From positions 1 to 22,712 of the IMG/VR virus record IMGVR_UViG_3300020204_000404: a stretch of 22,712 nucleotides of DNA; one strand, given 5' to 3'. This document shows, one piece after another, positions 4,422 to 22,666 of this stretch. The stretch is from a virus. The notes beneath the pieces are model-generated. The model was not told the DNA's origin, made no database searches, and saw only the letters and a list, made by a program, of their open reading frames with translations. How positions within the stretch are numbered: the stretch's first letter is position 1; each line of letters starts with the position of its first letter. Both the position numbers and the translations under genes were made by a program.

Positions 4422-4427
4422 AACTTA

Positions 4428-4460
4428 GTGTTACAAACACGCTCCTTGTGTTACTATATA
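4428..4460 (+). promoter_or_regulatory. Putative promoter and inverted repeat before second homing endonuclease
   Basis: GTGTT-ACA-AACAC at 4428-4440 is a perfect inverted repeat, and GTGTTAC recurs at 4448-4454 just before TATATA (4455-4460), a likely -10 box. A weak -35 (TTACAA, 4431-4436) sits 18 bp upstream, inside the inverted repeat, so a protein bound there would block the promoter. The repeat may be chance because it is short. Confidence 0.4.
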
Positions 4461-4482
4461 GTCCATACAAGGGTGTAATGAC

Positions 4483-5907
4483 ATGGACTGTAGGCTATGT
4501 GACTTTCGACATGATGATGCAAAGAAACTGACAAACCACATCAGGTCAATTCACGATCTGTCATCAGAGGATTACACTGTTGAAGTATACCACGGAGGTA
4601 AAAAACCTGTTTGCGAAGTGCGTTCATCCTCCGTCAGATATGTTTCTTTTTCTTTTAAAAGATTCTGCAAAGACCATTCCCATCTCGCTATGAAAGAAGG
4701 CGGAGCCCGAGGCGGAAAGGCCGAAGCTTGGAATAAGGGGCAAAGTAAGGATACAGATCCAAGGATAAAGCTCCAGTCTGAATCAATGACAGGTGAAGGT
4801 AACCCGTTCTATGGTCGCCGCCATACACGAGAGACCCTAGAAAAAATTAGCTTAAGTAAGATGTTGGAAACATCTACGCTAAAAGAAAGATTATTGGAGA
4901 GGCAGTCTGAGTTCACCCTCATTACTCCGTTAGAAGAATACATCTCTCGGCAAGAGCAGTACCTCAAGTTTCAGTGTAATCAATGTGGAGAGGTTCAACC
5001 AAAGACTCTACAGGCCTTTGAGAGAGGAAGTAGGTGTTATAAGTGCCACCCATTCAGCAAGTCCAATTGGGAACTAGAGGTGTTCACATTCGTTCAATCA
5101 TTAACATCTGATGTGATATCAGGCGACAAGAAGGCGATGTCTCCGAAGGAAATCGACGTGTATGTTCCTTCCAAAAAATTTGGGATAGAGTGTCATGGGT
5201 TGTACTGGCACAGCGAAGGTTCTAAACAAGGGGTTTTTGATAAGAACAAGCATCTAGAAAAATCCGTCCTTGCTGCGAAGAACGGCATAAAGTTGCTGCA
5301 GATATTTGAGGATGAATGGAGAGACAAGCGAGAGATATGCGAGTCGATGATCCGCCACCGTCTCGGCATGGATCGTTACAGGTGTAAGACCTGGTCCACA
5401 AAAGTCGTCGAATTAAACACACAAGAACAAAGGTCTTTCTTCGATTCTACACACATAGCAGGATATGTCCCGTCCAAGGTAACGTGGGGATTAAGAGACA
5501 GGAGTGGTATCGTCGTTGCTGCCTTGTCACTTCGTATTCCAAGGAACGGCAAGAAGTACGAAGGTTACCTAGAAATTGCTCGGTACAGCACGGCTCAAGC
5601 GACCTCTGTTCCTGGGGGTTTGTCTAAGTTGGTGAAACGCGCCAAAGAGTGGTGCAAAAAAAACGGATACCGTGGAATCATGACATACGTCGATAGACGT
5701 GTAGGAGAAGGGGACGGATATAAGTCTGTAGGGTTTTCTTTTCTAGGATCAACGACCGTAGATTATTGGTACACTGATAACCAGCTTCGTTACGATAGGT
5801 TTAAGTTTAGAGCAAAAAATGGTAAGTCCGAACGTCAGATTGCAATTGAGGTGAGAGTCTCAAGGATTTATGGATGTGGATCACACATGTACGTCATCAA
5901 TTTATAA
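4483..5907 (+). CDS. Hef-like homing endonuclease with NUMOD3 and C-terminal GNAT-like domain
   Basis: A second intact selfish endonuclease, 474 aa. In order: a zinc finger (C3-C6-H19-H24) related to that of the preceding gene; WNKGQ and a NUMOD3-type segment at about 82-123 (GEGNPFYGRRHTRETLEKIS); a zinc ribbon (C165, C168, C185, C188); and a PD-(D/E)XK nuclease at about 195-295 (Glu199, EIDVY with Asp225, FGIECHG with Glu236, HLEK, IFEDEW). This nuclease and what follows match the phage Hef-like family. The last third (about 300-474) is the domain usually attached to it, with a GNAT-like look (EIARYST, VPGGLSKLVKRAKEW, YVDRR). AAGGG at 4469-4473 is a weak ribosome site. Its stop is followed immediately by a TnpB remnant, so this interval has taken several insertions. 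The target is unknown. Confidence 0.85.
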   Translation: MDCRLCDFRHDDAKKLTNHIRSIHDLSSEDYTVEVYHGGKKPVCEVRSSSVRYVSFSFKRFCKDHSHLAMKEGGARGGKAEAWNKGQSKDTDPRIKLQSESMTGEGNPFYGRRHTRETLEKISLSKMLETSTLKERLLERQSEFTLITPLEEYISRQEQYLKFQCNQCGEVQPKTLQAFERGSRCYKCHPFSKSNWELEVFTFVQSLTSDVISGDKKAMSPKEIDVYVPSKKFGIECHGLYWHSEGSKQGVFDKNKHLEKSVLAAKNGIKLLQIFEDEWRDKREICESMIRHRLGMDRYRCKTWSTKVVELNTQEQRSFFDSTHIAGYVPSKVTWGLRDRSGIVVAALSLRIPRNGKKYEGYLEIARYSTAQATSVPGGLSKLVKRAKEWCKKNGYRGIMTYVDRRVGEGDGYKSVGFSFLGSTTVDYWYTDNQLRYDRFKFRAKNGKSERQIAIEVRVSRIYGCGSHMYVINL

Positions 5908-6052
5908 TTGTGAATAGAATGATCAAGACTGGCTTTGCGGCATATACTTCACAGAAGTGTTCTTTTTGCGGAAACATTTTGAGAAGTAATCGTCAAGGAG
6001 GCAAATATTCTTGCAAAAAAGGCATACGGCATGTAATATCAGAGATCGTTAG
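5908..6052 (+). pseudogene. Decayed 3' end of an IS200/IS605-type tnpB
   Basis: Between the endonuclease stop and base 6019 one frame reads GFAAYTSQKCSFCG, then NR, GGKYSCKK. This is the C-terminal zinc ribbon of TnpB nucleases (typical YTSQ-C-x2-C, NR, F/Y-x-C-x2-C). The second CxxC is broken. After CKK the family-like ending HTACNIRDR followed by TAG (6023-6052) continues in a different frame, which looks like a small deletion compared with the usual C-G-H-A-D-x-N-A-x-R-N-I. Nothing of the RuvC part is seen upstream because the preceding endonuclease gene occupies that DNA. It should be non-functional as a nuclease. A 67-aa frame starting at 5874 covers it but overlaps the endonuclease gene and is not a real gene. 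Confidence 0.6.
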
Positions 6053-6065
6053 GTCTCTAAATCAT

Positions 6066-6085
6066 CTCACAGTTTAAACTGTGAG
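6066..6085. repeat. Perfect 20-bp palindrome (CTCACAGTTTAAACTGTGAG)
   Basis: Two 10-bp half-sites with no spacer, centred on GTTTAAAC, 13 bp after the end of the TnpB remnant. IS200/IS605 elements carry subterminal palindromes and a structured omega RNA at the tnpB 3' end, so this may be a leftover of that end. It could also be an operator or a transcript hairpin. The rest of 6086-6240 shows no gene that I can support. Confidence 0.6.
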
Positions 6086-6240
6086 CAGGATGCAGTCAAT
6101 CATCCGTACGGAAACAGCGTTGTTCTTGGCGCTGAGTTCCAAGGTCATGGCCTTGTACCGTGACTATTTGACTAAAAAATGGTTATAGAAGATAAAAAGG
6201 CAGAAGCTCTTAAATCGCAAGAAAAAGAAGAAGATTGATG

Positions 6241-6246
6241 TATAAT
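6241..6246 (+). promoter_or_regulatory. Putative -10 box (TATAAT) before HNH gene
   Basis: Consensus TATAAT 7 bp upstream of the GTG start. No good -35 box is present at 16-18 bp, so support is limited to the -10 box and the lack of any ribosome site. Confidence 0.3.
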
Positions 6247-6253
6247 TGTATCC

Positions 6254-6580
6254 GTGAAGAGACGACGGATGCATGGTCAGCCTAAGTTAGAGAAAGATCG
6301 ATGCGAGATCTGTAGGTATGACCGTCCTGCGGCAATAAACATTCATCATATAATTCCGAGGTGTGATCCTCGATGCACAAATGATAACAATAATCTCGCT
6401 GTCGTTTGCCATTCTTGTCATGATTTAATTCATGAAGGAGAAATAACGATAATCGGTGTATATTCATCAACAGGCGGAAGAAAACTTATGTGGTTTAAAC
6501 AAGATGAAGAGCCGCCATTAGAACGAGAGTTTTGGTTAATAAAAGAAAATCCTCTTGTTTTAAGAAGAAAACAAAAATAA
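6254..6580 (+). CDS. Small HNH endonuclease
   Basis: A 108-aa HNH nuclease, probably a third mobile endonuclease of this interval. It shows CEIC at 17-20, the catalytic pair in IHHIIPR (His31-His32), an Asn-rich DNNNLAVVC turn and CHSCHDLIH (C52, C55, H56, H60). The two CxxC pairs would bind a structural zinc and the HH/N/H residues form the metal site, so the enzyme looks intact. Start: GTG at 6254 has no Shine-Dalgarno, but a perfect TATAAT lies at 6241-6246, implying a leaderless message; an ATG at 6269 is the alternative. No NUMOD or other DNA-binding domain is visible, which leaves open a restriction-like or packaging-related role. Its position next to two homing endonucleases favours selfish DNA. 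Confidence 0.8.
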   Translation: MKRRRMHGQPKLEKDRCEICRYDRPAAINIHHIIPRCDPRCTNDNNNLAVVCHSCHDLIHEGEITIIGVYSSTGGRKLMWFKQDEEPPLEREFWLIKENPLVLRRKQK

Positions 6581-6629: not shown

Positions 6630-8093
6630 ATGGGTAGAAGAAATAACGTTGTAATAAATGGATTGATAGTATCTCTCGCATTCGGATTAACGTTATACGG
6701 ATGTGAACGTCCTAATCCTTATAAGCTAGCAGGCGACACGTCTGCTGTTTTTAAAGATTGTCCGACTCCGAAACAATCTGCTACGGCTTCTGGCGATTCG
6801 CAAACGTCTGTTACGGTCTCAACGAACGTTTCAACAACGATATCTGGAGGTTTGACGTCGGCTTCTGTTTCACCCGGGTCGGGGCAACAACAACAAGAGA
6901 TGACAGAGCTTGATGAAAGAGAGTTAGATTATTCAGAGGCGTTGCGAACGGCAAGCATCTTAATCTTAGGGGATGTTCCAACTGTTTCTGAAATATATGA
7001 GTTGGCAGATTTACCTGCGGATATGCAGGATGAAAAATACCAAGAGTTGATCGATAAGAAGCTATCTGATCCACATTTTGCAGCTACCTTGGTCGAATTT
7101 TTTAAGTATACTTTTAAAATGGGTGGCATTTCTACTGTAGCCGGCGAGCCAAATCGTGACACCGCGCCTACTTTTGCAGCGAAGATAGTATATGAAGAAA
7201 AAGATTGGAGAAATATAATTGTCCAGCAGACTAATACATGTCCTACTTTTAATGCTACAAGCAATACCTTTATTGATGGTTCTTGTAACAATCTTCTTGC
7301 CGGGATGAATCATTCAGGAATCCTAACAGATCCAGGAGTTCAAAGTTTATACTACGGTAATCTATCATTTCGTCGTAATCGATTCTTTCATGAGACATTT
7401 TTATGTAGATCTGGAAATGAACAATCAGGTGGTGAACCGACAGATCAACCTCCTACAGCTTCTCCTTGTTCAGGAGCTGATCCAATCCCAGGATATCAAA
7501 ATAAGTGGCCTGTTAGCGAAATTGCTGGTGCTTGTAATGGTGGACGAGTAGATTTTCATGCCTATAATTCCAGCAACGTTTGCGCAAATTGCCATGCAAC
7601 ATGGAATCATCGTTCTCCTTTATTCAGCCAATTTGATTCAAAGGGAGTTTTTCAACCGTTGACACCGGTCGGAGAATATTCGGTATTTGTACCAGTCAAT
7701 GGTTCTCCAAGAGCGAAGTTATCCGATTGGCTTTGCACTGCTCCATCTTGTCCAAATGGTGGCAACAACAAACCAGCGTGGAAAAAGGTAATGAAAGTTA
7801 ACGGAGTTGAAATGCCCGCCTCCGCAGATACGATCAATGAACTTGGTCAACAGATGTCAAAGGATGATGAAGTAATCGAATGCGTTGTAAAGAGGATGTG
7901 GAATTATTCCATGGGTCGTGCAGATATAACTGAGATTGGTGGTCGTTCTTGGGTGTCCCTACCAGATCGTAAGGACAAGAATCCAGAATTGGTGACGATG
8001 TCAAAACTCGTGACGATGTTTAAAGGAAATGGATATAACCTTAAGCAGGTATTCCGTACCATCTTACTTTCCGATGATTTCGTGAGGTTCTAA
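6630..8093 (+). CDS. Cytochrome-like lipoprotein, DUF1592/DUF1588/DUF1585 type
   Basis: A 487-aa exported lipoprotein. A basic start, a hydrophobic stretch (8-23) and LYGC with Cys25 form a signal peptide II. A Ser/Thr-rich linker (about 48-90, including VSPGSGQQ) follows. Residues about 100-165 resemble the N-terminal part of planctomycete/myxobacterial DUF1592-like proteins. Residues about 228-345 resemble DUF1588: GILTDPG, RFFHETFLC, then NVCANCH at 316-322, a CxxCH heme c type motif. The last 90 residues match DUF1585: IECVVKRMWNYSMGR, then GYNLKQVFRTILLSDDF. The molecular role of these families is unknown; redox or surface roles are guesses. With one CxxCH it could bind heme, if the host matures c-type cytochromes. 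It leads a cluster with 3- and 12-bp gaps. I know of no usual phage function for this family. Confidence 0.75.
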   Translation: MGRRNNVVINGLIVSLAFGLTLYGCERPNPYKLAGDTSAVFKDCPTPKQSATASGDSQTSVTVSTNVSTTISGGLTSASVSPGSGQQQQEMTELDERELDYSEALRTASILILGDVPTVSEIYELADLPADMQDEKYQELIDKKLSDPHFAATLVEFFKYTFKMGGISTVAGEPNRDTAPTFAAKIVYEEKDWRNIIVQQTNTCPTFNATSNTFIDGSCNNLLAGMNHSGILTDPGVQSLYYGNLSFRRNRFFHETFLCRSGNEQSGGEPTDQPPTASPCSGADPIPGYQNKWPVSEIAGACNGGRVDFHAYNSSNVCANCHATWNHRSPLFSQFDSKGVFQPLTPVGEYSVFVPVNGSPRAKLSDWLCTAPSCPNGGNNKPAWKKVMKVNGVEMPASADTINELGQQMSKDDEVIECVVKRMWNYSMGRADITEIGGRSWVSLPDRKDKNPELVTMSKLVTMFKGNGYNLKQVFRTILLSDDFVRF

Positions 8094-8096: not shown

Positions 8097-9134
8097 ATGC
8101 AAAAAAATATAATGAAAAAATTTGGTTGGTCTACACTCGGAATAATTTCAACATTTTTAATGTTTAATTCGTGCGGTTCTACTGCACCTGATATTGGCGA
8201 AAATTATTGTCCTGACATAGAAGACTTATTAGGACCAGCAACCGTTGTTAGCGTAGCTGCATCTACATCTTCAGCAACAACAGACGGTGGAGTAGGAGGT
8301 TCACAAGTTTCTGCTGGTTCTGGCCAGCAAATGTCAACTGGCAGCGGGATGAAAGAGCTTTCGGAATACGACATTCCTAATCAAGATGAAATTATGTCTA
8401 GATTGCATTCTTGTAGAAAATTGACTTATGTACAATTAGGAAATTTTTTAAAGGCAAGAGGTGTTGCAGTTCCAACAGGAAATCTATTAGATAACCGAAC
8501 AACGATGACGAACGTTTTTGGTCAATCGGTAACGCTTGGAAACATTTTTGGTGGTTCAGGCGCATCATGTGAAACGGCAATAACTGATGCAAACGGAACA
8601 AATGATCCTGTTTGCTCAGGAGCAGAAATTTGTTTTTGTAATCAAGACGATAAAATGAATCAGGTTAATCGTAGTTGTCTTGACGTCGGAAATAACTCAC
8701 CGGATGCAGCAGATGGATATTGCGTATCCAAACCATCTACGGCGGGATTTTTATATTTTTCAGGAAAAGATGCTTTAGGCGTTCCAAAATTGGATTCGCG
8801 TCTTGGGGAAAAAGAAGAACATTCAACAGCTTCTGCAATGAAAATGATGGATATTTTCATTCAAGCTGCCTCACAAATCGTTACAAACATATCTGATCCT
8901 AACAAAGCACCGGCTTGTACATTAAATGGTAAAAACCTTCCTATGTTTGCCAACGATGGAAGTTGCGTTGAAGAATCAGTAAGTTGCTTGATTGGATATC
9001 CTGCGACGGATGATCACATGTTGTTGTGTAATTTGCTAATTCAAAAAGCAAAATCTGGTGATCAATCAGATTTAATTAAGAAGCGTAACATTGCAGTTGC
9101 GGTGATGCTCGCCGCGGCACATTCATGTCAATGA
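8097..9134 (+). CDS. Cysteine-rich lipoprotein of unknown function
   Basis: A 345-aa product not matched to a named family. A Lys-rich start and hydrophobic run to FNSC give a lipobox-like site at Cys26, with Phe at -3 and Asn at -2, so somewhat atypical. The next region has the same plan as the preceding protein: a CP pair, a Ser/Thr/Gly-rich linker and VSAGSGQQ (71-78), followed by an acidic KELSEYD. The body holds 14 cysteines including the lipid one, with a cluster at 158-209 (CSGAEICFCNQ), suggesting a disulfide-bonded periplasmic or surface domain. The C-terminal part (CLIGYPATDDHMLLCN, then a helical end) ends in HSCQ. GAGG at 8084-8087 gives a good ribosome site, and the 3-bp gap to the gene before implies co-translation and probably a shared complex. 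Confidence 0.7.
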   Translation: MQKNIMKKFGWSTLGIISTFLMFNSCGSTAPDIGENYCPDIEDLLGPATVVSVAASTSSATTDGGVGGSQVSAGSGQQMSTGSGMKELSEYDIPNQDEIMSRLHSCRKLTYVQLGNFLKARGVAVPTGNLLDNRTTMTNVFGQSVTLGNIFGGSGASCETAITDANGTNDPVCSGAEICFCNQDDKMNQVNRSCLDVGNNSPDAADGYCVSKPSTAGFLYFSGKDALGVPKLDSRLGEKEEHSTASAMKMMDIFIQAASQIVTNISDPNKAPACTLNGKNLPMFANDGSCVEESVSCLIGYPATDDHMLLCNLLIQKAKSGDQSDLIKKRNIAVAVMLAAAHSCQ

Positions 9135-9146: not shown

Positions 9147-10748
9147 ATGGCTAATTGGAAACTAAAAGAACTCCGTGATGAACGTCGTAGAACATTTCTT
9201 AAGATGTGTGGCGTTACTGCTGCAGCTATTGGTATATCTCGTACTGACTTATTAAACTTCCTTTCTGATGAAGGAGGGTATGGATTAGCTGAAGCTGCTG
9301 GCACGACTTATGGAAGATCTTTATTGGTCCCAGCGCCAAATGGAGTTCATGCATGGTTTCAAGAGTTATGGCCAGTTCCAGATGTTGCAATGAAAGCAAC
9401 TGCAAATGCTAACGTCCCAGGAATGTCTTCTAATTTTGGAGGATTCTCATCTTACCTGTATACATCTCAATATGGTTACAATCCCGTAAATGGATACCGC
9501 GGAACTTATACACAAGGCAAAGGAAATCAGCTTCCTTCTCTTCCAATAGGGGTTAAAGGCTGGGATGGTGGGGATAGATCCTTTTTTTATGGTCCTCATG
9601 CCCCATGGTTCGATCATATTCTTGGTCTTCCAAAGTATCCTGTAACTGCATATATGTCAGGAAAAGATGAAACTCACACTGAATTTCCAATTTCTCAAGT
9701 AGCTCTTTCTGGTAATTCATCTATGCAAGCAGCATTAGCATCTTTGGGCGCCGCAGGTTCTTCTTCAATTGTCCCCGTCTTAGGAATCGACCCCGTAAAA
9801 TATGGTAGAGCACCTGGCGCCCCTGAAATAGCGACTGTTCCATCGTCTGCGGGGATGATTGATTTATTTAATTCAGCCGCCAGTCAATTTACTTTATCAT
9901 CAAAAGCAGATCAAGAATTATTTGACGTGTATTACAAGGCACTAGTAGGTTTAAGAAAGTCTTCGAATAGAACGACTTGGTTACCTCAAATGCAAGTGAC
10001 TAAGAATGCAGCTCGAATCATTGGTTTAAACTTTGCTTCGCAATTAACTCCGATAAGCCAAGATCTTGCAGATTTTGGAATTCAAGAAATGATTGATAGC
10101 ATAAATTCATCTTCTTCTTACATGTCATCTGCTCAGCGTAAAGGTATTGAGGAATTTGGAAGAACTTTAATTGTTGTTGCAAAATCATTTGCATTAGGTC
10201 TATCTAAGACCGCTATTGTAGCCTTATCCCCAGGCCCAACCAGTGATACGACGTTTACAGATCCTCACGTTACATTTGATTCTCAAACGCAAATGAGTCA
10301 AGGTAGAAATACCATAAAGCATTTAGGGAAAGTTCTTGATGGATTTTACAACTACTTGTCTCAACAAGTCGATCCAGAAAGTCCTACAGAAAAACTAGAT
10401 CAAAACACAACGTTCGTTGCATACGGTGATACGCCCCATACTCCATTACAAGGTTCTACATGGCCGGACGCCACCCCGGATGCGTGTAATTGGACATATG
10501 TGATGGATCCTAAAAGAAACGTTAAGAATGGGTGGTTCGGTCATGTTTATGCAAACAAAGTTAATGGAAAAAACGCAGTTGGATTCAACCCGTTGACTGG
10601 CCTCGACGATTCGACAAAGACATCTGAACAGATGTCGTCATTTGCTTCTGTTGCAACTATTTATGCGGTTGCAAAAGGTGACAACAATAAGACTGCCGAA
10701 TATGGTGTTTCTCCAAATGTAGTTTCTGGAATGATTAACGTTAAATGA
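9147..10748 (+). CDS. Tat-exported DUF1501/DUF1552-type protein
   Basis: A 533-aa secreted protein. Residues 13-19 (RRRTFLK) form a twin-arginine signal, followed by a hydrophobic CGVTAAAIGI and a possible cut after AEA at 48-50, so it would be exported folded. Later segments recall DUF1501/DUF1552 proteins, which have an alkaline-phosphatase/sulfatase-like fold: RSLLVPAPNGVHAWFQELWP at 57-76, a C-terminal half with MSQGRNTIKHLGKVLDGFYN, and LDQNTTFVAYGDTPHTP in place of the family's GT/L-LDN-T-VVV-SE-GRTP region. The usual downstream His motifs are not obvious, so the match is distant and activity is doubtful. In bacteria these proteins are encoded beside DUF1549/DUF1588/DUF1585 proteins, exactly the partner found here. 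AGGA at 9134-9137 is the ribosome site, 12 bp after the previous gene. Confidence 0.65.
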   Translation: MANWKLKELRDERRRTFLKMCGVTAAAIGISRTDLLNFLSDEGGYGLAEAAGTTYGRSLLVPAPNGVHAWFQELWPVPDVAMKATANANVPGMSSNFGGFSSYLYTSQYGYNPVNGYRGTYTQGKGNQLPSLPIGVKGWDGGDRSFFYGPHAPWFDHILGLPKYPVTAYMSGKDETHTEFPISQVALSGNSSMQAALASLGAAGSSSIVPVLGIDPVKYGRAPGAPEIATVPSSAGMIDLFNSAASQFTLSSKADQELFDVYYKALVGLRKSSNRTTWLPQMQVTKNAARIIGLNFASQLTPISQDLADFGIQEMIDSINSSSSYMSSAQRKGIEEFGRTLIVVAKSFALGLSKTAIVALSPGPTSDTTFTDPHVTFDSQTQMSQGRNTIKHLGKVLDGFYNYLSQQVDPESPTEKLDQNTTFVAYGDTPHTPLQGSTWPDATPDACNWTYVMDPKRNVKNGWFGHVYANKVNGKNAVGFNPLTGLDDSTKTSEQMSSFASVATIYAVAKGDNNKTAEYGVSPNVVSGMINVK

Positions 10749-10801: not shown

Positions 10802-10811
10802 ATTCTACTAC

Positions 10812-11134: not shown

Positions 11135-11157
11135 GGCTTAGCTTATTAGCTTAATTT

Positions 11158-11194: not shown

Positions 11195-11253
11195 AAAAAA
11201 GTTTAATCATCAAATTCTATATTAAGCTAACAATAGTTATTAATGAGGTTATT

Positions 11254-11469: not shown

Positions 11470-11490
11470 TAAAATGTTGAATTGATGATA

Positions 11491-11529
11491 GATATTTAAC
11501 ATACATTAAGGATATTTAACTACATTAAG
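11491..11529 (+). repeat. Tandem repeat just upstream of a start codon
   Basis: GATATTTAACATACATTAAG (11491-11510) is followed at once by GATATTTAACTACATTAAG (11511-11529), the same unit minus one A. Each copy ends in a TTAAG(G) that can serve as ribosome site; the second gives AAGG at 11527-11530, 8 nt before the ATG at 11539. It may be an operator, a recent slippage duplication, or a duplicated ribosome site. Confidence 0.75.
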
Positions 11530-11538
11530 GTACATTTT

Positions 11539-11865: not shown

Positions 11866-11871
11866 AATATT

Positions 11872-12051
11872 ATGTCCGCTACAACAGAAAATTTATTATT
11901 AAAAATCGTTGAACTCGAACAAAAGATTTTAGAATCTAAGGCTCGCGGTGAAAATTCTATCGAGATGGAAGAAACATTGGCATTGCTTAAGAGTAGATTT
12001 ACTTCAATGAATGAAGCCTTAAGCAGAAGTCAAGGCGTCTTGAAAGGATGA
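11872..12051 (+). CDS. Very small coiled-coil protein (59 aa)
   Basis: An ATG at 11872 opens a 59-codon frame, MSATTENLLLKIVELEQKIL through to QGVLKG, ending at TGA 12049-12051. It is a nearly continuous amphipathic helix with Leu/Ile spacing typical of a short coiled coil, and has no Pro in the body. It begins 6 bp after the preceding stop and its end lies at the start of the next gene, so translation is probably linked. No clear Shine-Dalgarno precedes it, so initiation may depend on the gene before. Function unknown. Confidence 0.6.
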   Translation: MSATTENLLLKIVELEQKILESKARGENSIEMEETLALLKSRFTSMNEALSRSQGVLKG

Positions 12052-12281: not shown

Positions 12282-13067
12282 ATGTTTCAAGTTCTTAGAA
12301 AAGGCTCAACAGGGCCAGAAGTTGAAAAATGGCAAAACTTTTTACGAGGAAGAACGTCAAATAGTAGCATTGTGGCTGACGCGGTTTTTGGAAATATAAC
12401 AGAACTTGAAACAAAAGCATTCCAAAGCAGCAAAGGATTAATCCCGGATGGTGTAGTTGGTCCAAAAACTTTGGCTATAGCTATTAGTTCAGGATTTCCT
12501 GCTGTTTTAGATTCTTCAAAAAACATTAATGGACCAAACTGGCCGCAACAACCGCCTCATGGGCCTTTAAGTTTTTTAGATAGAGAAAAATTATTTGGTA
12601 AATTTTCTTATGTTTCATCTCCAACGTATGCAAACCCTGAAGCAATAACGATTACGTCAAACTGGACTTCAAATATTTCTCAAGTTTCAATTCATCACTT
12701 ACGCGGAATAGCTGGTGTTCCAAAATCAAGTACTATTCAATTTCATTCATTATTGATTCCTCAAATAACAAAACTTTTTAATAAATGGCATGATGAAGGA
12801 TTAACATATCTGATTTTATCATGGGGTGGTTCATGGGTACCCAGATTCGTTCGTGGATCAAGAACTTCTTTATCTAATCATGCTTGGGGAACGGCATTTG
12901 ATATTAACGTACAATGGAACATGTTAGGTGCTCAACCAGCATTAAGAGGTGAGACAGGTTCTGTTAGAGAGCTTGTAGAAATTGCTTATGAATATGGATT
13001 TTATTGGGGCGGATGGTTTGCAAATCGTCCTGATGGAATGCATTTTGAAGCTTACAAAATACTTTAA
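12282..13067 (+). CDS. Endolysin: peptidoglycan-binding domain + M15 peptidase
   Basis: A 261-aa cell-wall enzyme. Residues 5-70 are a peptidoglycan-binding domain of the PG_binding_1 type (GSTGPEVEKWQNFLRGR, VADAVFGNITELETKAFQ, DGVVGPKTL). The C-terminal part is a zinc peptidase of family M15 (VanY or L-alanyl-D-glutamate peptidase type): SNHAWGTAFDIN supplies His200 and Asp207, and GMHFE supplies His254, the three zinc ligands. It would cut the peptide stems of peptidoglycan. There is no signal peptide, so release in lysis would need a holin, not seen in this window. Lying just before the neck and tail genes, it could instead be virion-borne. There is no clear ribosome site; the start follows the previous stop by 9 bp. 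Confidence 0.9.
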   Translation: MFQVLRKGSTGPEVEKWQNFLRGRTSNSSIVADAVFGNITELETKAFQSSKGLIPDGVVGPKTLAIAISSGFPAVLDSSKNINGPNWPQQPPHGPLSFLDREKLFGKFSYVSSPTYANPEAITITSNWTSNISQVSIHHLRGIAGVPKSSTIQFHSLLIPQITKLFNKWHDEGLTYLILSWGGSWVPRFVRGSRTSLSNHAWGTAFDINVQWNMLGAQPALRGETGSVRELVEIAYEYGFYWGGWFANRPDGMHFEAYKIL

Positions 13068-13191: not shown

Positions 13192-14379
13192 ATGACAACA
13201 TTTGTAGCAACGATTAATCCAACGCCATTTGGCTTTTTTGATGCCGAGGCTTCTTTTCAAACAGAAGCAGACTCGATGGTTTTATTTGTTAAGCGTAAAT
13301 TAGGCGATGACGTTCTTTCTGTAGAGTTAACAAAGAAAGAAATATGGGCATGTTTCGAAGAGGCATGCTGCGAATACAGTAGATTAATTCATGAGATGAA
13401 GATAACATCTGATTTAACAAACGTTTTGGGGTTGCCAACAGGGTCGACTGATCTAACAAACAGATATGCAAAGCGTACGGTAGAATATCTTCTTAGAATG
13501 GCAGAACCGTATGCGACAGAAGCATACATCGGTGGTTCATATGATGCTACGCTTGGATACATAGAACTTGTTTCTGGTCAACAAGATTACAACATTTATA
13601 ATGACGTTAAAGTTGCTGCCGGTGATGATAAAGACGAAGTAGTATACGACACGATGCCCTCAGGGTCTAAAGGAAAATTAAAAGTTGTTGAGTTATTCCA
13701 TTTTGAGCCACTAGCATCTCAACAATTTTTGTTGAACGCTTCAAATATCACAAACTTTTTAGCAACCAATTTTAACTATGAATCGTATGTTAACTCAACA
13801 GTCTTTTATGTCCTTCCAGTGTTTGAAGATGTTTTAAGAAGAGGTATGTTAGAAACAGCATTTAGGGTTAGAAGATCAAATTATTCTTATGAAATAATTG
13901 GAAGCAATTTAAGAATTTATCCAACGCCTTCAACTAATATTCAAATGGGTAAGCTTTTTATAAAATTAATGAAACCTCATAATCCACTAAATCCGACTGC
14001 ATATGCAGATGACTCGATTTACGGCATATCCGGACCCAACAATATGCCTTTTGGTAACATACCTTTTATTACAATAAATCAACCTGGAAAACAGTGGATT
14101 AGACAATACACGTTAGCATTATGCAAAGAACTTTTAGGTTTAATTAGATCTAAGTTTTCTTCGATACCAATTCCAAACGCAGACTTGCAGCTGAATGGGT
14201 CAGATTTGATTTCTCAAGGTAGGGAAGACAAAGACAAGTTAACGACTCAAATGAAAGAATTTTTAGAAAATTTAACAAGCGCAAAACTTCTTGAGCAAGA
14301 TGCTTTGGCAGCTGAAAATATGCAAAAACAGCTTAGATACATTCCAATGCCGCTAGGCAAAGGAATAGTAATCGGATAA
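13192..14379 (+). CDS. Neck protein, probably T4 gp13-like
   Basis: A 395-aa structural protein, likely part of the head-tail connector. The N-terminal part (about 25-65: MVLFVKRKLGDDVLSVELTK, then a helix with FEEACCEYS) has the pattern of gp13-type neck proteins, in which a conserved VELT-like strand and helical bundle are followed by a Gln/Tyr turn (here YIELVSGQQDYNIYN, about 122-136). The C-terminal half has no clear motif. It is the first of three consecutive genes that follow the T4 order 13-14-15, which supports the call more than the sequence does. AAGGAA at 13177-13182 sets the start. Other possibilities are a portal-associated adaptor or another connector subunit. Confidence 0.6.
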   Translation: MTTFVATINPTPFGFFDAEASFQTEADSMVLFVKRKLGDDVLSVELTKKEIWACFEEACCEYSRLIHEMKITSDLTNVLGLPTGSTDLTNRYAKRTVEYLLRMAEPYATEAYIGGSYDATLGYIELVSGQQDYNIYNDVKVAAGDDKDEVVYDTMPSGSKGKLKVVELFHFEPLASQQFLLNASNITNFLATNFNYESYVNSTVFYVLPVFEDVLRRGMLETAFRVRRSNYSYEIIGSNLRIYPTPSTNIQMGKLFIKLMKPHNPLNPTAYADDSIYGISGPNNMPFGNIPFITINQPGKQWIRQYTLALCKELLGLIRSKFSSIPIPNADLQLNGSDLISQGREDKDKLTTQMKEFLENLTSAKLLEQDALAAENMQKQLRYIPMPLGKGIVIG

Positions 14380-14383: not shown

Positions 14384-15052
14384 ATGGCAAGGCTTTTCAT
14401 TACCCAACGCGAGATTAACTTTATCTCTGACATAACGAAAGAGATTGTTAAAGATGTCGTCGGTCAAAAAATTTATTATTATCCAATTTCAGAGACAAAA
14501 ACAAAGACTCACGAGGTTTATGAAGAAGCTTTACAAAAGATTTTTGATAATCCAATTTTGATTGAAGCATTGGTCAATAGTGAATTTCAAAATGAAACTA
14601 AAATCAATAAGTTCGGTGTAGATACTCAATTTACTTTAGAGGTCTATATTCAACATCGAGATATGGTTGAAAAAGGAATTAATCCTTCAATAGGAGATTA
14701 TTTTTCTTTTGGTACAATATTTTATGAAATTACTGAATACAAATACATGCGCACTATCTATGGGCAGGCAGAAAATATAGATGGAATTTCTTTAGTAGGA
14801 ACGAGGGTTCGTGAAAGCCAATTCAAGGCTCTTATTAATGGCCCAACTGATCTTAAGTACACAGATCAAGGCGCTATTCAGGATACGTTCGTTCAACAAA
14901 GAGGCTTTGCAAAAAACAAAGAAGGTACGACTGCAGACACAAGAGATTTGGTTAAAAATGGTGTATTGGAACCACCTATCACTGGACCAAAAGAAGTTTC
15001 TAATCTTGGAGATCCAAACGATGTAGGTAATGCTTTTTACGATGAGGATTGA
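14384..15052 (+). CDS. Neck/head-closure protein, T4 gp14-like
   Basis: 222 aa, close in length to T4 gp14 (256 aa). The order of features agrees: an early GQKIYYYPISETKT segment (T4 has a CYYVPREY block there), an EALQKIFDNP helix, FGVDTQFTLEVYIQHRDM (T4: FGMQVQDEVTLSI), then PSIGDYFSFGTIFYEITEY (T4: PKEGDLIYFPMDNSLFEI). It would help seal the DNA-filled head and receive the tail. It begins 4 bp after the gp13-like gene and ends 2 bp before the gp15-like start, so the three are surely co-translated. No strong ribosome site of its own is seen; termination upstream may supply ribosomes. Confidence 0.75.
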   Translation: MARLFITQREINFISDITKEIVKDVVGQKIYYYPISETKTKTHEVYEEALQKIFDNPILIEALVNSEFQNETKINKFGVDTQFTLEVYIQHRDMVEKGINPSIGDYFSFGTIFYEITEYKYMRTIYGQAENIDGISLVGTRVRESQFKALINGPTDLKYTDQGAIQDTFVQQRGFAKNKEGTTADTRDLVKNGVLEPPITGPKEVSNLGDPNDVGNAFYDED

Positions 15053-15054
15053 TT

Positions 15055-16374
15055 ATGCCAGTTAGACATAATTCAAAAAGTCGCCCGAGGTTTGGTGTAA
15101 ATGGAATTAATACAGATTCGCATAATGGAAATCCTACGTTCACTATCCCACCAGTAGGTGTAGAGGATGTCGACGTTGCCTTATTTAAATTATTTGATAA
15201 TGAGATTAAGTTACAGGTAGGATCAAAAGATACAGAATTTAAAAAGGTTCCTGTCATTTTTGCGACAGGAGAAAAATGGGCGATATTAAAGAAAAGAAGA
15301 GCATTAAGAGATAGAAATAACTCTTTGATCCTTCCTTTGATTACGATAGCAAGAAACAATATTTCTCAAGATTTAGGTAGTGATATTGCAGGTAGAGGAA
15401 TTAATCAGCAAACAAGCGAAATCATTATTCGTAGACGGCTTGACAAATCTGATAGAAATTATCAAAATTTAATAAATCGTTATTTATTACAAAATCAAAA
15501 GAACGTTGCAACCAATCCTCAGTTGGCTCACATTGATGAACAAATATTAACTGAAAGAAAAGTAGGAGAAGACTCGAATACTCGAACAGGATTAGATGGT
15601 GCATGGTTAGCAGATATAAAAAAGAATAATATTTTTGAAACAATCGTCATACCATCTCCTCAATTTTGCACTGTTAGCTATGAAGTAACGATGTGGACGC
15701 AATATACGCAACATATGAATCAATTGATTGAACAAATTATTTCATCATTTTTGCCACAAGGAAATGCATGGCAATTAAACACACCAAAAGGGTATTGGTT
15801 TATAGCAACAGTAGACAATAACTCATATGATCCAGAAAATAATTTAGATGAGTTAGGTCAAGAAGAAAGAATTATCAAATACAAATTTAATATTAGCGTA
15901 AAAGCGTACATTTTTGCTTCGCAAGATCCTAACACGGGAATTCCTGTAAAAAGATATGTTTCATCACCCATTATTTCTTTTGAAACAAATGTTTTTGCTG
16001 GTGTCGTTAATAATGAGTCAAATTCAATAGTTGCTAATCCATTCTTAGGTTCTGATGATCCGACTCTACCATTATCAGATGAAGTAAATAGAAGAAGAGA
16101 TCAAAGAAACACAAACGGAACTCGTCTATATGATCCTAAAGATTCTTCAATATCAAATGATTCAGCAAATAGCACTAGAAATTCTAAATCTAATCAAATT
16201 GAACCTTTATATAGAAAAACACCAGGCGGGTATGTTAGGGTTTATGCTGTAAACCAAACATCAGGAGAGTCCGTCATTAAGCCAGCTTCACAAGTTAGCG
16301 CTACCCCCGCGCCGTTAACGGCTGATGCTTTATTAGGAGGTTTATCATATCATATCATCGGAGAAGATGATTGA
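15055..16374 (+). CDS. Tail terminator / sheath stabiliser, T4 gp15-like
   Basis: 439 aa from the ATG at 15055, chosen over a TTG at 15049 because GAGG (15044-15047) lies 7 nt before it. Two blocks match T4 gp15: KKVPVIFATGEKWAI followed by a LILPLITI strand (T4: IRVPITYASKEHF and ETILPRINL), and IPSPQFCTVSYEVTMWTQYT followed by QLIEQIISSFLPQ (T4: PSPIKMIYELSIFTRY and FQIVEQILPYFQP). In T4 this protein forms the hexameric ring that ends the tail tube and sheath and joins the neck. It is larger than T4 gp15 (272 aa), with an insert between the two blocks and a long Asn/Ser-rich C-terminal tail. It sits directly before the sheath genes, as expected. Confidence 0.8.
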   Translation: MPVRHNSKSRPRFGVNGINTDSHNGNPTFTIPPVGVEDVDVALFKLFDNEIKLQVGSKDTEFKKVPVIFATGEKWAILKKRRALRDRNNSLILPLITIARNNISQDLGSDIAGRGINQQTSEIIIRRRLDKSDRNYQNLINRYLLQNQKNVATNPQLAHIDEQILTERKVGEDSNTRTGLDGAWLADIKKNNIFETIVIPSPQFCTVSYEVTMWTQYTQHMNQLIEQIISSFLPQGNAWQLNTPKGYWFIATVDNNSYDPENNLDELGQEERIIKYKFNISVKAYIFASQDPNTGIPVKRYVSSPIISFETNVFAGVVNNESNSIVANPFLGSDDPTLPLSDEVNRRRDQRNTNGTRLYDPKDSSISNDSANSTRNSKSNQIEPLYRKTPGGYVRVYAVNQTSGESVIKPASQVSATPAPLTADALLGGLSYHIIGEDD

Positions 16375-16436
16375 TTTTTATTTTTGGTTTTTTTCAAATA
16401 CTTATAAGAAAGTTTGTTGCATGAAGGAGTAGTATA

Positions 16437-19400
16437 ATGGCTGAGCAGGTTTTTAGATCTCCTAATTTTTTTGAGCGTGAGATTGAGCTTAAAGCTCCAG
16501 CATCAGCAGGACCAATTGGAGTTCCAGCAGGTGTTATCGGTACATCTAACAAAGGTCCGGCATTCATTCCGGTCACCGTTGCTAGCTTTCAAGAGTTTGT
16601 TAACATATTTGGCGATTTAGATCCAAAGAAGTTTGGTCCATATGCAGTCAATGAGTTTTTAAAGAATAGAACAGCGCTTACTTACATGAGAGTATTAGGC
16701 GCTGGTGCTAACAAAACCACGACGGATATTTCAAATACAGCCGCATCCGGCCGCGTAAAAAATGCAGGTTTCAAGCTTGAAGGTGTTGTTTCAACAGCCA
16801 ACGGAGCGTTAGGCCGCCACAACGGTGCAATACAATTTTTATCTGCAGATCATACGCTTCAAACGAATGAAGCTTATGGTATGCCGATGTTTACTGATAA
16901 TGATTCACGTACCCAAGCTTCTAATATGAATCTTATTAGAGGCGTCGTCATGATGGCCACAGGAACTAGAATGATGGTTCTTGATGGAAATCAGTCTGTT
17001 CCTACAGCATTCAATGGGATGGCTGTTACCGATGACGCAGCGTTAGTTAAATCTGGAAAATTTAAGTTAGTCATCTCTTCTACTTTAGGCTCTGCATATT
17101 CATTTGATGACGGAGTTCCTGGAATTAAAGTATATACAGCATCAATGAACCCGTCAGATGATGATTACTTTGGAAAAGTTCTTAACAAAGACCCAGAAAA
17201 GTTTGCAACATATCAACATCTTCTCTATGCCGATTATGCAGTTGATGATGAAGTTGCTACAGTTGCTAATGATGACTACGTTGCAGTTCTTTCTGGTTCT
17301 TCATTAACCAGCAACGTTTCTGGCGAATCTACAACTGAATTCCGCAAGGCTTTCGGAGCTTTCGACACACGTTATGTTTCTCCTAAGACATCATACTTTA
17401 TTTCTCAGCCATTCGGCGCAACAGAGTATGATCTATTTGCAATTGAAGCTCTCGATGATGGAGCATATGCAAACAGCCTTTACAAGGTCTCAATTGCAAA
17501 TCTCAAGGTTTCTGAGAATGAAGCGGATGAATATGGAATATTCAACGTTCAAATTCGCGACTGGAATGACACAGACATCAACCCAGTCATTCTTGAAGAG
17601 TTTGTGAATTGTTCTTTAAACCCAGATTCAGATAATTATGTCGGAAAACTGATTGGTGATCGTAAGGTTACTTACGATTTTGACCAAGACATCGTTTCTG
17701 AAAGAAGGATTATATCTACGGGTAAGTACTCCAACGTTTCTAAGTACGTCAGAGTTATTATTAATTCAGCAGTTGAAGACAAGAAAGTTCCTGCAAAATC
17801 TCTTCCATTCGGGTTCAGAGGACCAGAACTTTTAAAGACCAATGATTCTCTAAATGATGGTTCAACAGGTGCTAAGAGGCTTGCTGGTTTATTTACAATA
17901 GATTCTTCAGGAATCTTATCACAATCAATCTTGCCTCCTGTTCCATTTAGGTTTAAAGTAACAAAAGGTCCGATGTCAGCCCCAGCTTGGGACGGTGATC
18001 CAGGACCTCAAGAAGTTGCATCACCTCAATTCTATTGGGGCGTCAAGTTTGAAAGAAATAATGTTCCTCTCAATGTAAATCTTTCTGAAGTTAAAAATCC
18101 TCTTCTTGAAAGCTACACTAAGTTTGCAGGTATTAAGAAGCTCGACGTTCTCGTGACCGGTTCCGGCGCTGATACTTTCAATAACAACAAATTCTCGTTG
18201 TCAAAGGTCGCATTCTCTGCAGGAACGATATCTAATCTAACTGGAACAATTCGTGCTCATATGCGAGAAGCTGCGTATGTAAGAAACGCAAAGCTAGATC
18301 CTACAACTTATATGATCAATGATCCTGTTTTAGGAAATAGAATCACGTTTGCTTCATTGCTATCAAATGGACAACCTTATGAATTTAACAAGTATTCTTC
18401 ATTTGCTAAATTCACAACATTCATGCAAGGTGGATTTGACGGTCTAAATGTCCTCGATTCTGCTGCCGCCCGAATGAATGATAAGGCAACATCATTTGAA
18501 ACACCACATGGTGGAGCTTCTGCAACTTATCTACCAGCCGGCCTCGCTTCAAATCAAGCAGGAACTGGTGTCGACAATAACTCAGTTAATTCTTACATTA
18601 CTGCGGTCGATGTTATGACGGATCCTCTACAAGTCAACGTCAATCTTTTGGCATTACCTGGAATTCGTGAAGATTATATCACGAACTATGCATCAAAGAA
18701 AGTTCGTGATTACGGTCTTTCGATGTACGTAATGGATCTTCCAAATTATGACGATAATAGTAATAGAATTTATGATGATTCTGCTGCTAAGATTAGCGTT
18801 GAAAATACTGCTTTAACATTCGAAGCAAGAATTTTTGATAACAATTATGTTGCAACTTACTTCCCAAACGTTTATGTAAATGATGTAACAAATGCCAAGT
18901 ATGTCAAAGTACCAGCTTCAGTTGCAGCATTAGGTGCGTTAGGATTTAATGATAGAGCCGCATATCCTTGGTTTGCTCCAGCAGGATTTAATCGTGCAGC
19001 GCTTGATTTTGTCAACAACGTCGAGGTTAGATTAAACGTGTCTGATAGAGATCGTCTCTACGATGCACGCATCAATCCAATTGCAACATTCCCAAGACTA
19101 GGCTTCGTGATTTACGGACAAAAGACGCTACAAATCAGAAAGTCAGCTCTTGATAGAGTCAACGTGCGTCGTCTTCTTCTTGAGGTCAAGAGACTTGTCA
19201 TAAACATTGCAAATAGAATTGTGTTTGAACAAAACACGCCTGCCGTCAGAAATAAATTCGTAGCTGATGCAATTCTTCAACTAAGTCTCATACAATCGCA
19301 GGCCGGCATTGAAGCATACCAAGTTGTGATGAACGAGACAAATAATACGCAAGAAGACGTTGATCTTAACCGTCTTAATGGTAGAATCGTAGTTGTTCCA

Positions 19401-19466
19401 ACAAGGGCAATTGAGTTCATTGCAATTGACTTCATCGTTACAAACTCTGGAGTTCAATTCGTTTGA
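16437..19466 (+). CDS. Tail sheath protein, copy 1
   Basis: 1009 aa, forms the contractile sheath around the tail tube. The N-terminal block GVPAGVIGTSNKGPAFIPV (28-46) and FGDLDPKKFGPYAVNEFL are standard for phage and contractile-injection sheaths. The conserved C-terminal domain starts about 904 (ALDRVNVRRLLLEVKR) and ends with IVVVPTRAIEFIAIDFIV, the strand-handshake part. A YPWFAPAG motif lies near 842. At 1009 residues against 659 in T4 gp18, the extra length is in the middle, probably outward-facing domains. AAGGAG at 16424-16429 gives a strong ribosome site. Paralogous to the next gene along its whole length. Confidence 0.95.
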   Translation: MAEQVFRSPNFFEREIELKAPASAGPIGVPAGVIGTSNKGPAFIPVTVASFQEFVNIFGDLDPKKFGPYAVNEFLKNRTALTYMRVLGAGANKTTTDISNTAASGRVKNAGFKLEGVVSTANGALGRHNGAIQFLSADHTLQTNEAYGMPMFTDNDSRTQASNMNLIRGVVMMATGTRMMVLDGNQSVPTAFNGMAVTDDAALVKSGKFKLVISSTLGSAYSFDDGVPGIKVYTASMNPSDDDYFGKVLNKDPEKFATYQHLLYADYAVDDEVATVANDDYVAVLSGSSLTSNVSGESTTEFRKAFGAFDTRYVSPKTSYFISQPFGATEYDLFAIEALDDGAYANSLYKVSIANLKVSENEADEYGIFNVQIRDWNDTDINPVILEEFVNCSLNPDSDNYVGKLIGDRKVTYDFDQDIVSERRIISTGKYSNVSKYVRVIINSAVEDKKVPAKSLPFGFRGPELLKTNDSLNDGSTGAKRLAGLFTIDSSGILSQSILPPVPFRFKVTKGPMSAPAWDGDPGPQEVASPQFYWGVKFERNNVPLNVNLSEVKNPLLESYTKFAGIKKLDVLVTGSGADTFNNNKFSLSKVAFSAGTISNLTGTIRAHMREAAYVRNAKLDPTTYMINDPVLGNRITFASLLSNGQPYEFNKYSSFAKFTTFMQGGFDGLNVLDSAAARMNDKATSFETPHGGASATYLPAGLASNQAGTGVDNNSVNSYITAVDVMTDPLQVNVNLLALPGIREDYITNYASKKVRDYGLSMYVMDLPNYDDNSNRIYDDSAAKISVENTALTFEARIFDNNYVATYFPNVYVNDVTNAKYVKVPASVAALGALGFNDRAAYPWFAPAGFNRAALDFVNNVEVRLNVSDRDRLYDARINPIATFPRLGFVIYGQKTLQIRKSALDRVNVRRLLLEVKRLVINIANRIVFEQNTPAVRNKFVADAILQLSLIQSQAGIEAYQVVMNETNNTQEDVDLNRLNGRIVVVPTRAIEFIAIDFIVTNSGVQFV

Positions 19467-19527
19467 TTAAAAAAAACTTAGGTAATCTGATACTTATCAA
19501 TCAAGCAAATCGGTAGGAGCGAAATAA
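19467..19527 (+). other. Gap between the two sheath genes
   Basis: 61 bp. It holds an A-rich run, a 12-bp inverted repeat TGATACTTATCA (19488-19499) and the ribosome site TAGGAG (19514-19519). No terminator is visible, so both sheath genes are probably on one message. Confidence 0.4.
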
Positions 19528-22500
19528 ATGGCACAGCTCAAGTTTGGCAGCGCAGGCGTAACAACAAGAGAATTAGATCTAACAGGACCGGTAGAGGTAT
19601 CACCAACTGGAGTACCTGCAGGCGTTATCGGTACAGCAGTTAAAGGACCGGCTTTCGTTCCGTTAACATATGGCACTCTATCAGACTTTTTTGCAAAGTT
19701 TGGTGAAAGTGACTCAAAGAAATTTGGACCTTTGGCCGTTTCAGAATGGTTAAGAAGAGCAGGTTCTGTAACCTACTTAAGAGTTTTAGGCACCGGCGAC
19801 GGTAAAAAACGTGCGACATCTGGAACGACAGCAGGTGATGTTACGAACGCTGGATTTACGGTAGGAGAAGAATTACCATCTGTAACCGATGGTTCTTTAT
19901 CATCAAATCCATTTGCAAATTCTGAAGGAATCCCTGGAAGAACATACTTCTTAGGATGTTTTATGTCTGAGTCTGCTGGCTCTTCTGTATTTAGTTCCGC
20001 AGGAATTCAAGGCGTTGGAAGCATTAATTCTATAGTAAATGGAGCAGTTCCGATTGTAAGAGGCGTCCTAATGGCTCCTTCTGGTGTAGTTCTTAGACTT
20101 TCTGCGTCTGCTGTAGGAATCGATTCCTCTAAACCAGCTTCCAGCATAATTGGTAATAATTCTGTAACGAACAAAGGAACATCATTAGGAACTTTGGTTC
20201 TATCTGATGTAAAGCAAGAATTTACGTTGATGCTAAATGGCCACAAAGGAACAAATTCTTTGTATCCGAATGTTATTACAGCATCATTCAACGTAACTTC
20301 TTCAAATTATATTAGCAAAGTTCTAAACACGGATCCTTACAAGATTCAAGAAGCAGGACATTATCTGGCTGCTCATTGGGACATCCACCCAGTATTAGCT
20401 GTAGTTACGGGCTCCGGTGTAGTGTCTGAAGCGCCAATCGCAGCTGGGTTAGAAAGATCTGCTTTTCTTTTATCATCATCATTGGCAAGAAACGTCGGTT
20501 CTTCCGTCGTTCCAAACTATGAAGGATTCCGTGATAGATTCTCAAGTGCAAAAACCTCTTGGATTATTTCGCAAAAGTTCGGTGGATCACCTCAAAATCT
20601 ATTTAAGTTACATTCTTTAGATGCTGGTGCAGGTATTTCTAACCAATACAAGATTTCTATTTACAACATCGTTCCATCATCTGATCCTTCTAACAAATAC
20701 GGTTCTTTTAGCCTTTCGATAAGAAGCTTAACGGACACCGATATCGATCAAAAGGTTTTAGAAAGATGGGAAGGGGTAAACCTAGATCCATCTTCTGATA
20801 GATACGTCGCTAAAGTCTTAGGAGATGTTAACGCTTATTATGACTTTGATAGAGATGAAGCAGAACAAAAGCTTATCGTTGATGGAAACTATGAACTTCG
20901 CTCACGTTATGTAAGAGTTGAAGTTTCTGATGCCGTAACAAATGAGACGATTGACCCAACCGCTTTACCAATGGGATTCAGAGGAATTTCTCATCTTGTA
21001 ACTTCTGGTTCATCACCATTAGCACCATTAAGTGAGGTTGATTCTTCTGCATTAAGCATAGCTACATTTACAAGAAATACGATCGAACCACCGCTTCCAT
21101 TCAGAAATCATTTAAATGATGGAACAGGACAACAAACTCAAGTTAACGTTAGATACCATTGGGGTGCTAAGTTTGAACATATCACAAACTTAGTTGAACA
21201 AAATAGCTCAATTCTTCAAGATAAATCATTTCATAGCTTTACGAAACATTTTCCAACGCATTCTACAGTTAACATGAACTTTGCAGTTGAGGATAACACC
21301 GGTGTTGCTGACACTGCAACAAATGGTATCTTGGATGTTGATAGATTCTGTAACAATATTTTTTCCTTAGAAAATATTAAGATAACAACTGGGTCAAATG
21401 GTACGGTCGCACAAAATAATGATTGGCAATATGCAACTTACGTTAGAAAAGGAAACATCATCACTGATGATGCCGCAAAGACAAGAGCGGTTCAAATCAG
21501 CGATCTTACAAATTCTCAAAATCGTAAATTCTTAAAGTTCTCTTTCATTATGCAAGGAGGATTTGACGGAGTTAATATTTTCGATAAAGATGAAGCAGAG
21601 ATTAACAACGCTGCAGTCGTAGCTGATATGAATGATGTTGATAGAGGCCGCAACGTCGGACCCAACGTTTCAGCATATCTTAAGGCTCTCGATGTTATGA
21701 AAAATACGACAAACGTAGATATCCAGCTTCTTGCAATCCCAGGCATTCGTGCCCCGATCATCACAGACGAAGCTATTAGAGCGACAGAAGAACGATTCGA
21801 CGCTCTATACATTATGGACGTTGAACAAGTAGACAAGAACGGAAACTTGATCAATATCTCATCTACGACAAAACCATCTGTTAAGGAGACAGTAGATCAA
21901 CACAAGGCTCGTAATCTTAATACGTCATTTGCGGCCGCATATTTCCCTGACGTTTTAATGAAGGATCCTTCTAAACCAACAAACTCTATAATCGTTCCAC
22001 CATCAGTAGTTGTCATGGGCGCCTTAGCATTGAACGATTCTTTAGGATACCCCTGGTTTGCACCAGCTGGTTTAACCAGAGGAGAGCTTCCAACAACCCT
22101 TGAGACAAGCATTCAACTTAAGGATGTAGATCTTGATTCGCTCTATGATGAAGACATCAACCCAATCTACGCTCCTTCTACAACGACCCGTGGAGGAACT
22201 AATCCAAAAGGTGGTGTAGTTGTCTGGGGTCAAAAGACGATGCTTCAAACTGCATCTGCGCTTGATAGAATCAACGTCCGTAGACTTCTTATCGACATTC
22301 GCCGTCAAGTTCGTGAGATTGCTCAAACAATCATCTTCGAACCAAACCGTGAAGCAACATTGGCTCGCTTCTCTGCAGCAGTGACACCACGTCTTCAGAG
22401 AATCCAAGCTCTCGCCGGGCTTGAGAGATTCCGCGTTATCATTGATTCTTCGACGACGACGCAGGCAGATGTTGAAAACAACACTGTACGTGGCAAGATC

Positions 22501-22578
22501 TTCTTACAACCCACTAAGACAGTTGAATTCGTCTCCTTGGATTTCGTTGTGGCCAACAACCTTCAACAAGTTCAATAA
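19528..22578 (+). CDS. Tail sheath protein, copy 2
   Basis: 1016 aa, a full paralogue of the preceding gene. The N-terminus has GVPAGVIGTAVKGPAFVPL and FGESDSKKFGPLAVSEWL. The middle shares FIMQGGFDGVNIFD with the copy before (FMQGGFDGLNVLD). The C-terminal domain of 106 residues (ALDRINVRRLLIDIRR to the end) is the same length as in copy 1, and YPWFAPAG is kept near 841. The reading frame is intact and all conserved blocks remain, so both copies should be functional. The copies differ widely in sequence, so the duplication is old. They may build a mixed sheath, occupy different tail zones, or serve different virion states. TAGGAG at 19514-19519 is the ribosome site. Confidence 0.95.
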   Translation: MAQLKFGSAGVTTRELDLTGPVEVSPTGVPAGVIGTAVKGPAFVPLTYGTLSDFFAKFGESDSKKFGPLAVSEWLRRAGSVTYLRVLGTGDGKKRATSGTTAGDVTNAGFTVGEELPSVTDGSLSSNPFANSEGIPGRTYFLGCFMSESAGSSVFSSAGIQGVGSINSIVNGAVPIVRGVLMAPSGVVLRLSASAVGIDSSKPASSIIGNNSVTNKGTSLGTLVLSDVKQEFTLMLNGHKGTNSLYPNVITASFNVTSSNYISKVLNTDPYKIQEAGHYLAAHWDIHPVLAVVTGSGVVSEAPIAAGLERSAFLLSSSLARNVGSSVVPNYEGFRDRFSSAKTSWIISQKFGGSPQNLFKLHSLDAGAGISNQYKISIYNIVPSSDPSNKYGSFSLSIRSLTDTDIDQKVLERWEGVNLDPSSDRYVAKVLGDVNAYYDFDRDEAEQKLIVDGNYELRSRYVRVEVSDAVTNETIDPTALPMGFRGISHLVTSGSSPLAPLSEVDSSALSIATFTRNTIEPPLPFRNHLNDGTGQQTQVNVRYHWGAKFEHITNLVEQNSSILQDKSFHSFTKHFPTHSTVNMNFAVEDNTGVADTATNGILDVDRFCNNIFSLENIKITTGSNGTVAQNNDWQYATYVRKGNIITDDAAKTRAVQISDLTNSQNRKFLKFSFIMQGGFDGVNIFDKDEAEINNAAVVADMNDVDRGRNVGPNVSAYLKALDVMKNTTNVDIQLLAIPGIRAPIITDEAIRATEERFDALYIMDVEQVDKNGNLINISSTTKPSVKETVDQHKARNLNTSFAAAYFPDVLMKDPSKPTNSIIVPPSVVVMGALALNDSLGYPWFAPAGLTRGELPTTLETSIQLKDVDLDSLYDEDINPIYAPSTTTRGGTNPKGGVVVWGQKTMLQTASALDRINVRRLLIDIRRQVREIAQTIIFEPNREATLARFSAAVTPRLQRIQALAGLERFRVIIDSSTTTQADVENNTVRGKIFLQPTKTVEFVSLDFVVANNLQQVQ

Positions 22579-22633: not shown

Positions 22634-22666
22634 TTAAGGGCTTCTTTGGAGGCCCTTAATTATTTG
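22634..22666 (+). terminator. Terminator after the sheath genes
   Basis: TTAAGGGC (22634-22641) pairs with GCCCTTAA (22652-22659) around a 10-nt loop, followed by TTATTTG. The stem is good but the T-run is interrupted, so strength is moderate. Confidence 0.65.

Follow-up and report, generated by a model that had tools for sequence, protein, structure and literature searches.

The DNA analysed here, referred to below as the window, is a stretch of 22,712 nucleotides (positions 1 to 22,712 of the IMG/VR virus record IMGVR_UViG_3300020204_000404), and its 3′ part carries two tandem genes, A and B, for tail sheath proteins of about 1,000 residues (Table 1). The genes upstream of A include a gp23-like capsid gene, whose nearest records are LR756508, Flavobacterium phage immuto and Mel-JY01, and gp13- and gp15-like genes; the ORF between the latter two gave no family match in profile searches and is called gp14-like by its position. 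Together these genes mark the phage as a distant relative of T4.

Table 1. Features of the window in order of position.
Feature	Position	Strand	Basis or remark
gp23-like major capsid protein	1572..3452	+	PF07068, E 1.6e-77
Three homing endonuclease-like ORFs after the capsid gene	3561..6580		NUMOD3, HNH and TnsA-like domains
Part of the preceding stretch	3561..4421		also a weak match to a head-closure family
Three long ORFs of the structural cluster	6630..8093, 8097..9134, 9147..10748		no convincing family match
Endolysin-like gene within the neck/tail gene cluster	12282..13067		PG_binding_1 and Peptidase_M15_4
gp13-like head-tail adaptor	13192..14379	+	phrog_211, E 6e-10
Probable gp14-like neck protein	14384..15052	+	by position: flanked by the gp13- and gp15-like genes, the T4 order
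gp15-like tail sheath stabiliser/terminator	15049..16374	+	phrog_227, E 2.3e-11; PF16724, E 3.8e-14; directly upstream of A
Promoter-like ATACTTAT upstream of A	16398..16405	+
Ribosome-binding core AAGGAG of A	16424..16429	+
Sheath gene A	16437..19466	+	1009 aa; intact, ATG start
Promoter-like ATACTTAT upstream of B	19490..19497	+
Ribosome-binding core AGGAG of B	19515..19519	+
Sheath gene B	19528..22578	+	1016 aa; intact, ATG start
Terminator-like hairpin between B and C	22634..22659	+	11-bp stem, T-rich tail; same sequence in locus L003
Leader of C, cut by the contig end	22660..22712	+	matches the B-C spacer of locus L083

A and B lie on the same strand, 61 bases apart. A tblastn search of A against the window aligned the two at 37% identity over residues 1–1004 (E 7e-141), far above chance, and both match the tail-sheath family phrog_23 (A, E 2.9e-50; B, E 2e-50); matches to the Pfam sheath domains are weak and fall under Pfam's own cut-off. 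A reading made earlier from the sequence alone (the sequence-only reading) had described two intact tandem sheath genes that share conserved blocks, and these descriptions are borne out: the motif YPWFAPAG occurs at position 843 of A and 841 of B, and the distance from ALDR to the C-terminal end is 106 residues in both. The AlphaFold model of A (pLDDT 87.6, pTM 0.86) has as its best match the KP1 phage sheath 9f4a (Z 32.8, 5.8 Å over 451 residues), as does that of B (pLDDT 85.4, pTM 0.84; Z 30.7, 4.7 Å over 441 residues), so that solved T4-type sheaths are the best structural matches of both (Z of about 31–33). Each model has the sheath fold, a core made of N- and C-terminal parts with an outer insert; as read from the models against shorter sheaths, the core comprises approximately residues 1–90 and 715 to the end, two parts that flank an insert of about 620 residues. 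The genomic place is likewise that of a T4 gp18-type sheath, with the gp15-like gene just upstream and, in relatives, the tube gene downstream. A and B are thus tail sheath proteins of the T4 gp18 type. Chance or misread ORFs are ruled out by the phrog_23 matches, the A–B identity and the folds, and an assembly duplicate is ruled out by the 37% identity together with the recurrence of the same gene order in independent contigs.

The contig ends 134 bases 3′ of B, and relatives that are 99.7–100% identical to the window in A and B have another full-length sheath gene, here called C, some 160 bases downstream of B. The last bases of the window match the B-C spacer of one such relative, L083, and C therefore very probably starts about 28 bases past the contig, near position 22741. 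C encodes 999–1053 aa and shares approximately 50% identity with B and 28% with A; in loci that are read through, a single tube gene follows 3′ of the sheath array. Exactly three sheath copies are found in the large contigs of the window's subclade (211, 278, 204, 187 and 212 kb), and these five contigs rule out the third copy as an artefact; large contigs of sister clades (309 and 113 kb) have two. An array of two, as the sequence-only reading had it, is accordingly right as to the intactness of A and B but gives the wrong count for this subclade.

To place these genes among their relatives, we compared 82 loci showing both gp15 and tube; some partly overlap one another, and the counts are thus of loci rather than of independent phages. 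Fifty have the order A-B, 27 have A-B-C and two have A-B-tube followed by an extra sheath gene, while the remaining three are an A-B locus in which a frame break splits A into two ORFs (L165), the single-sheath phage Mel-JY01, and LR756508, which has an independent pair. The 27 A-B-C loci, each bounded by gp15 and tube, hold three sheath paralogues in one locus, as in the Afp/PVC-type sets, with C lying outside the window itself. None of the 82 has only A or only B, and A and B occur together in all 79 bounded loci of the clade. A single retained gene beside a decayed partner, the finding that would have spoken against long retention of both copies, was looked for among the relatives and not found; only two of 466 sheath ORFs are frame-broken. 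These two, L197 2939–6446 and L165 5266–8260, reflect either sequencing error or real decay. The array has also changed in other ways: in L168, L192, L199, L214 and L217, B is enlarged to 1,476–1,798 aa, apparently through growth of the insert, with A also enlarged in L217 (1,309 aa), and in L192, L195 and L199 the tube gene is followed by a further sheath gene, 26–32% identical, which arose separately from C.

Phylogenetic trees place all A genes in one clade (support 100/100) and B together with C in another (100/99 and 100/100), in which C is nested alongside B genes from the same subclade (100/100). Relatives with a single sheath gene, some of whose products measure 900–1,120 aa, branch outside these clades, and a tree topology test strongly rejects a grouping of Mel-JY01 with either A or B. 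From this topology, the A/B duplication therefore predates the sampled clade and postdates its split from single-sheath phages, and the second duplication, in which C arose from B, is characteristic of the window's subclade. The first duplication is thus old, as the sequence-only reading had supposed.

The sequences around the three genes suggest that A and B are strongly expressed and C weakly. In C-bearing loci, the motif ATANTTAT (N = C, T or A) precedes A, B and tube, and it was present upstream of A in 9 of 9 distinct upstream sequences; a search of the 61-base gap between A and B found no hairpin terminator. In every C-bearing locus examined, the B-C spacer contains a strong hairpin, which differs in sequence among subclades with its structure kept; that of the window folds at −20.3 kcal/mol (z −4.7). 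Beyond the hairpin, before C, the promoter-like motif takes the fixed form ATAGTTAT in all 21 distinct upstream sequences, and none of these 21 has a ribosome-site core before C, counts that do not represent 21 independent cases because the C-bearing loci are related. By comparison, a GGAG/AGGA core precedes A, B and tube in 100% of C-bearing loci, and the median ribosome-site pairing is −1.3 kcal/mol for C versus −6.5 to −8.0 kcal/mol for A, B and tube. Both forms of the motif may act as promoters. As ATAGTTAT is not clearly enriched overall in the 211-kb contig, where its total count is modest and it also precedes some other ORFs, a special regulon was rejected and we term it promoter-like only. 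A short upstream ORF controlling C, sought by eye in the leader sequences, was not conserved. Several ORFs in the 211-kb relative (L220–L230), some of them downstream of ATAGTTAT, share N-termini like MKITVGQLRSIIKEE, and may represent proteins that are packaged into the head by means of a shared targeting leader.

Selection also separates C from its neighbours. In pairs with unsaturated dS, dN/dS is 0.03–0.07 for A and B and 0.11–0.27 for C. Computed over 13 three-gene loci, divergence in core and insert, respectively, is 0.087 and 0.228 for A and 0.109 and 0.257 for B, conservation being much tighter in the core and the two arms than in the insert; a slow core and a fast insert are the pattern expected for lattice proteins. 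In C this pattern is reversed (0.506 and 0.403). The rate of change in C is 4.65 times that of B in the core and 1.56 times that of B in the insert, a core-to-insert ratio of 2.99 (95% CI 2.5–3.65). The lattice-forming parts of C have thus been specifically released, or driven to vary, with the reading frame kept.

C has moreover been exchanged between phages. Between L003 and L083, identity is 99.8% in B and only 66.8% in C (pS 0.01 versus 0.68), and such a contrast between a near-identical B and a divergent C requires replacement of C by recombination. Identity falls in the B-C spacer right after the hairpin, and the minus-strand homing endonuclease beside C also differs between the two (pS 0.71). 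Co-conversion with this neighbouring endonuclease is a plausible route by which C alleles are swapped.

With two sheath genes in the window and a third in its closest relatives, several different sheath proteins probably make up the contractile tail. The reading that we prefer, at a probability of roughly 55%, is that A and B form a two-component contractile sheath and that C is a scarce, specialised sheath relative with swapped alleles. In this model, A and B, which arose by the old tandem duplication, would be the two lattice-building sheath proteins of one distant T4-type myophage, made together in quantity and enclosing a single type of tail tube. Duplication of B later produced C, just past the contig end, in the window's subclade. 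C would be transcribed apart from A and B and weakly translated; it has lost most of the constraint on its lattice core while keeping its frame, and may form an end ring, a cap or another position in the tail, its alleles passing between phages. A two-component sheath around one tube would be the simplest reading of A and B, and a shared lattice is no more than plausible, since their arms are only 33–38% identical to each other. The different jobs that the sequence-only reading proposed for A and B, a mixed lattice or zones, would be compatible with everything observed, while the clear division of labour appears to lie in C. More tentatively, C may be a fast-changing, separately switched and scarce component with a job other than the bulk lattice, its arms and core varying in a way that controls the end of the tail, or else the mixing in of sheath proteins from co-infecting relatives, so that the system would comprise two conserved builders and one exchangeable specialist.

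Alternatively, only one of A and B might make up the bulk of the sheath, with the other confined to a special ring at either the baseplate or the neck, in the manner of the multiple sheath proteins in the Afp and PVC injection systems. The outer sheath of Afp is polymerised from Afp2, Afp3 and Afp4 (PMC12961389), and among solved structures Pvc2/3/4 and Afp2/3/4 are sequence relatives of the A/B family. However, A and B are alike in their strong expression signals and strict core conservation, and the gene that resembles a minor component is C, which makes this arrangement doubtful. As for C itself, it could be a copy without function that is on its way to decay, or it could be carried along by the homing endonuclease, a 560-aa minus-strand gene that often lies between C and tube and is swapped together with C; the loss of constraint on the lattice core of C would fit either. 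Against this, all loci that cover C in full have it open over approximately 1,000–1,050 codons, its dN/dS is 0.11–0.27 in the unsaturated pairs, it has its own conserved upstream motif, and it is kept in lineages without an endonuclease between C and tube (L025); we consider such an origin unlikely. That A and B are alternative sheaths for different times or hosts, each building a complete tail, is quite improbable, for although both keep every lattice element and each could form a sheath alone, they sit closely spaced on one strand with no terminator between them, with the same promoter-like motif and strong ribosome sites, and no lineage of the clade retains just one of them.

A contractile tail is generally pictured as a single protein present in hundreds of copies. 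The T4-like clade described here, which is large and uncultured, never appears with fewer than two different sheath proteins and adds a fast-changing and apparently separately controlled third. With it, one can test whether a phage sheath may be a mixed lattice in which each protein has its own place, as is the case for some injection systems, and which pressure makes a structural protein vary in its core rather than on its exterior.

The idea of several sheath proteins is already known from the published PaBG pair, a survey that reports two sheath copies in some phages (PMC9230969) and the three-sheath Afp. Among open-licence papers, we found no description of T4-type sheath genes fixed as a tandem pair throughout a large clade of uncultured phages, together with a third copy having a released core, its own signals and swapped alleles. 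As in T4 gp18 and phrog_23, the fold, the C-terminal core and the place before a gp19-type tube gene are the same, whereas the single gene of T4 encodes 659 aa and each of the two or three genes in the present phages encodes about 1,000 aa, including the long insert. The sequence-only reading was right that A and B are well above T4 gp18 in length, but the length is not unusual, as published sheaths of large phages reach 987 (AR9), 1086 (Atu_ph07) and 1283 aa (LacPavin_0818_WC45; PMC9230969).

Nearest among named phages by sheath is Microcystis phage Mel-JY01, which has the same local gene order but, unlike the window, a single sheath gene (812 aa) outside the A/B duplication. The uncultured huge phage LR756508.1 (484 kb; L138) resembles the window in that two adjacent 824-aa sheath genes, at 6020–8491 and 9509–11980, lie between a gp15-like gene and tube; several homing endonuclease-like ORFs follow the pair. 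Orthology with A and B is nevertheless rejected (LR1 with A, p-AU 0.0008; LR2 with B, p-AU 3e-7), and the pair is an independent duplication.

The Pseudomonas jumbo phage PaBG likewise has two full-length paralogous sheath genes in one genome; their products are 38% identical and derive from gene duplication (Kurochkina et al., 2018, as cited in PMC7412058), and both bands were identified in the structural proteome described in PMC7412058. The PaBG copies, at about 58 kDa each, are encoded by widely separated genes (gp76 and gp213), whereas A and B are of about 110 kDa and adjacent in a T4-type gene order, with a third copy following in one subclade. Afp2/3/4 and Pvc2/3/4 offer a parallel to the three-gene loci, as three related sheath paralogues around one apparatus. 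Those sheath proteins are 350–450 aa long and surround an apparatus with no DNA-filled head, compared with about 1,000 aa here, and unlike in the Afp and Pvc sets, the third copy here is fast-changing and appears to be separately controlled.
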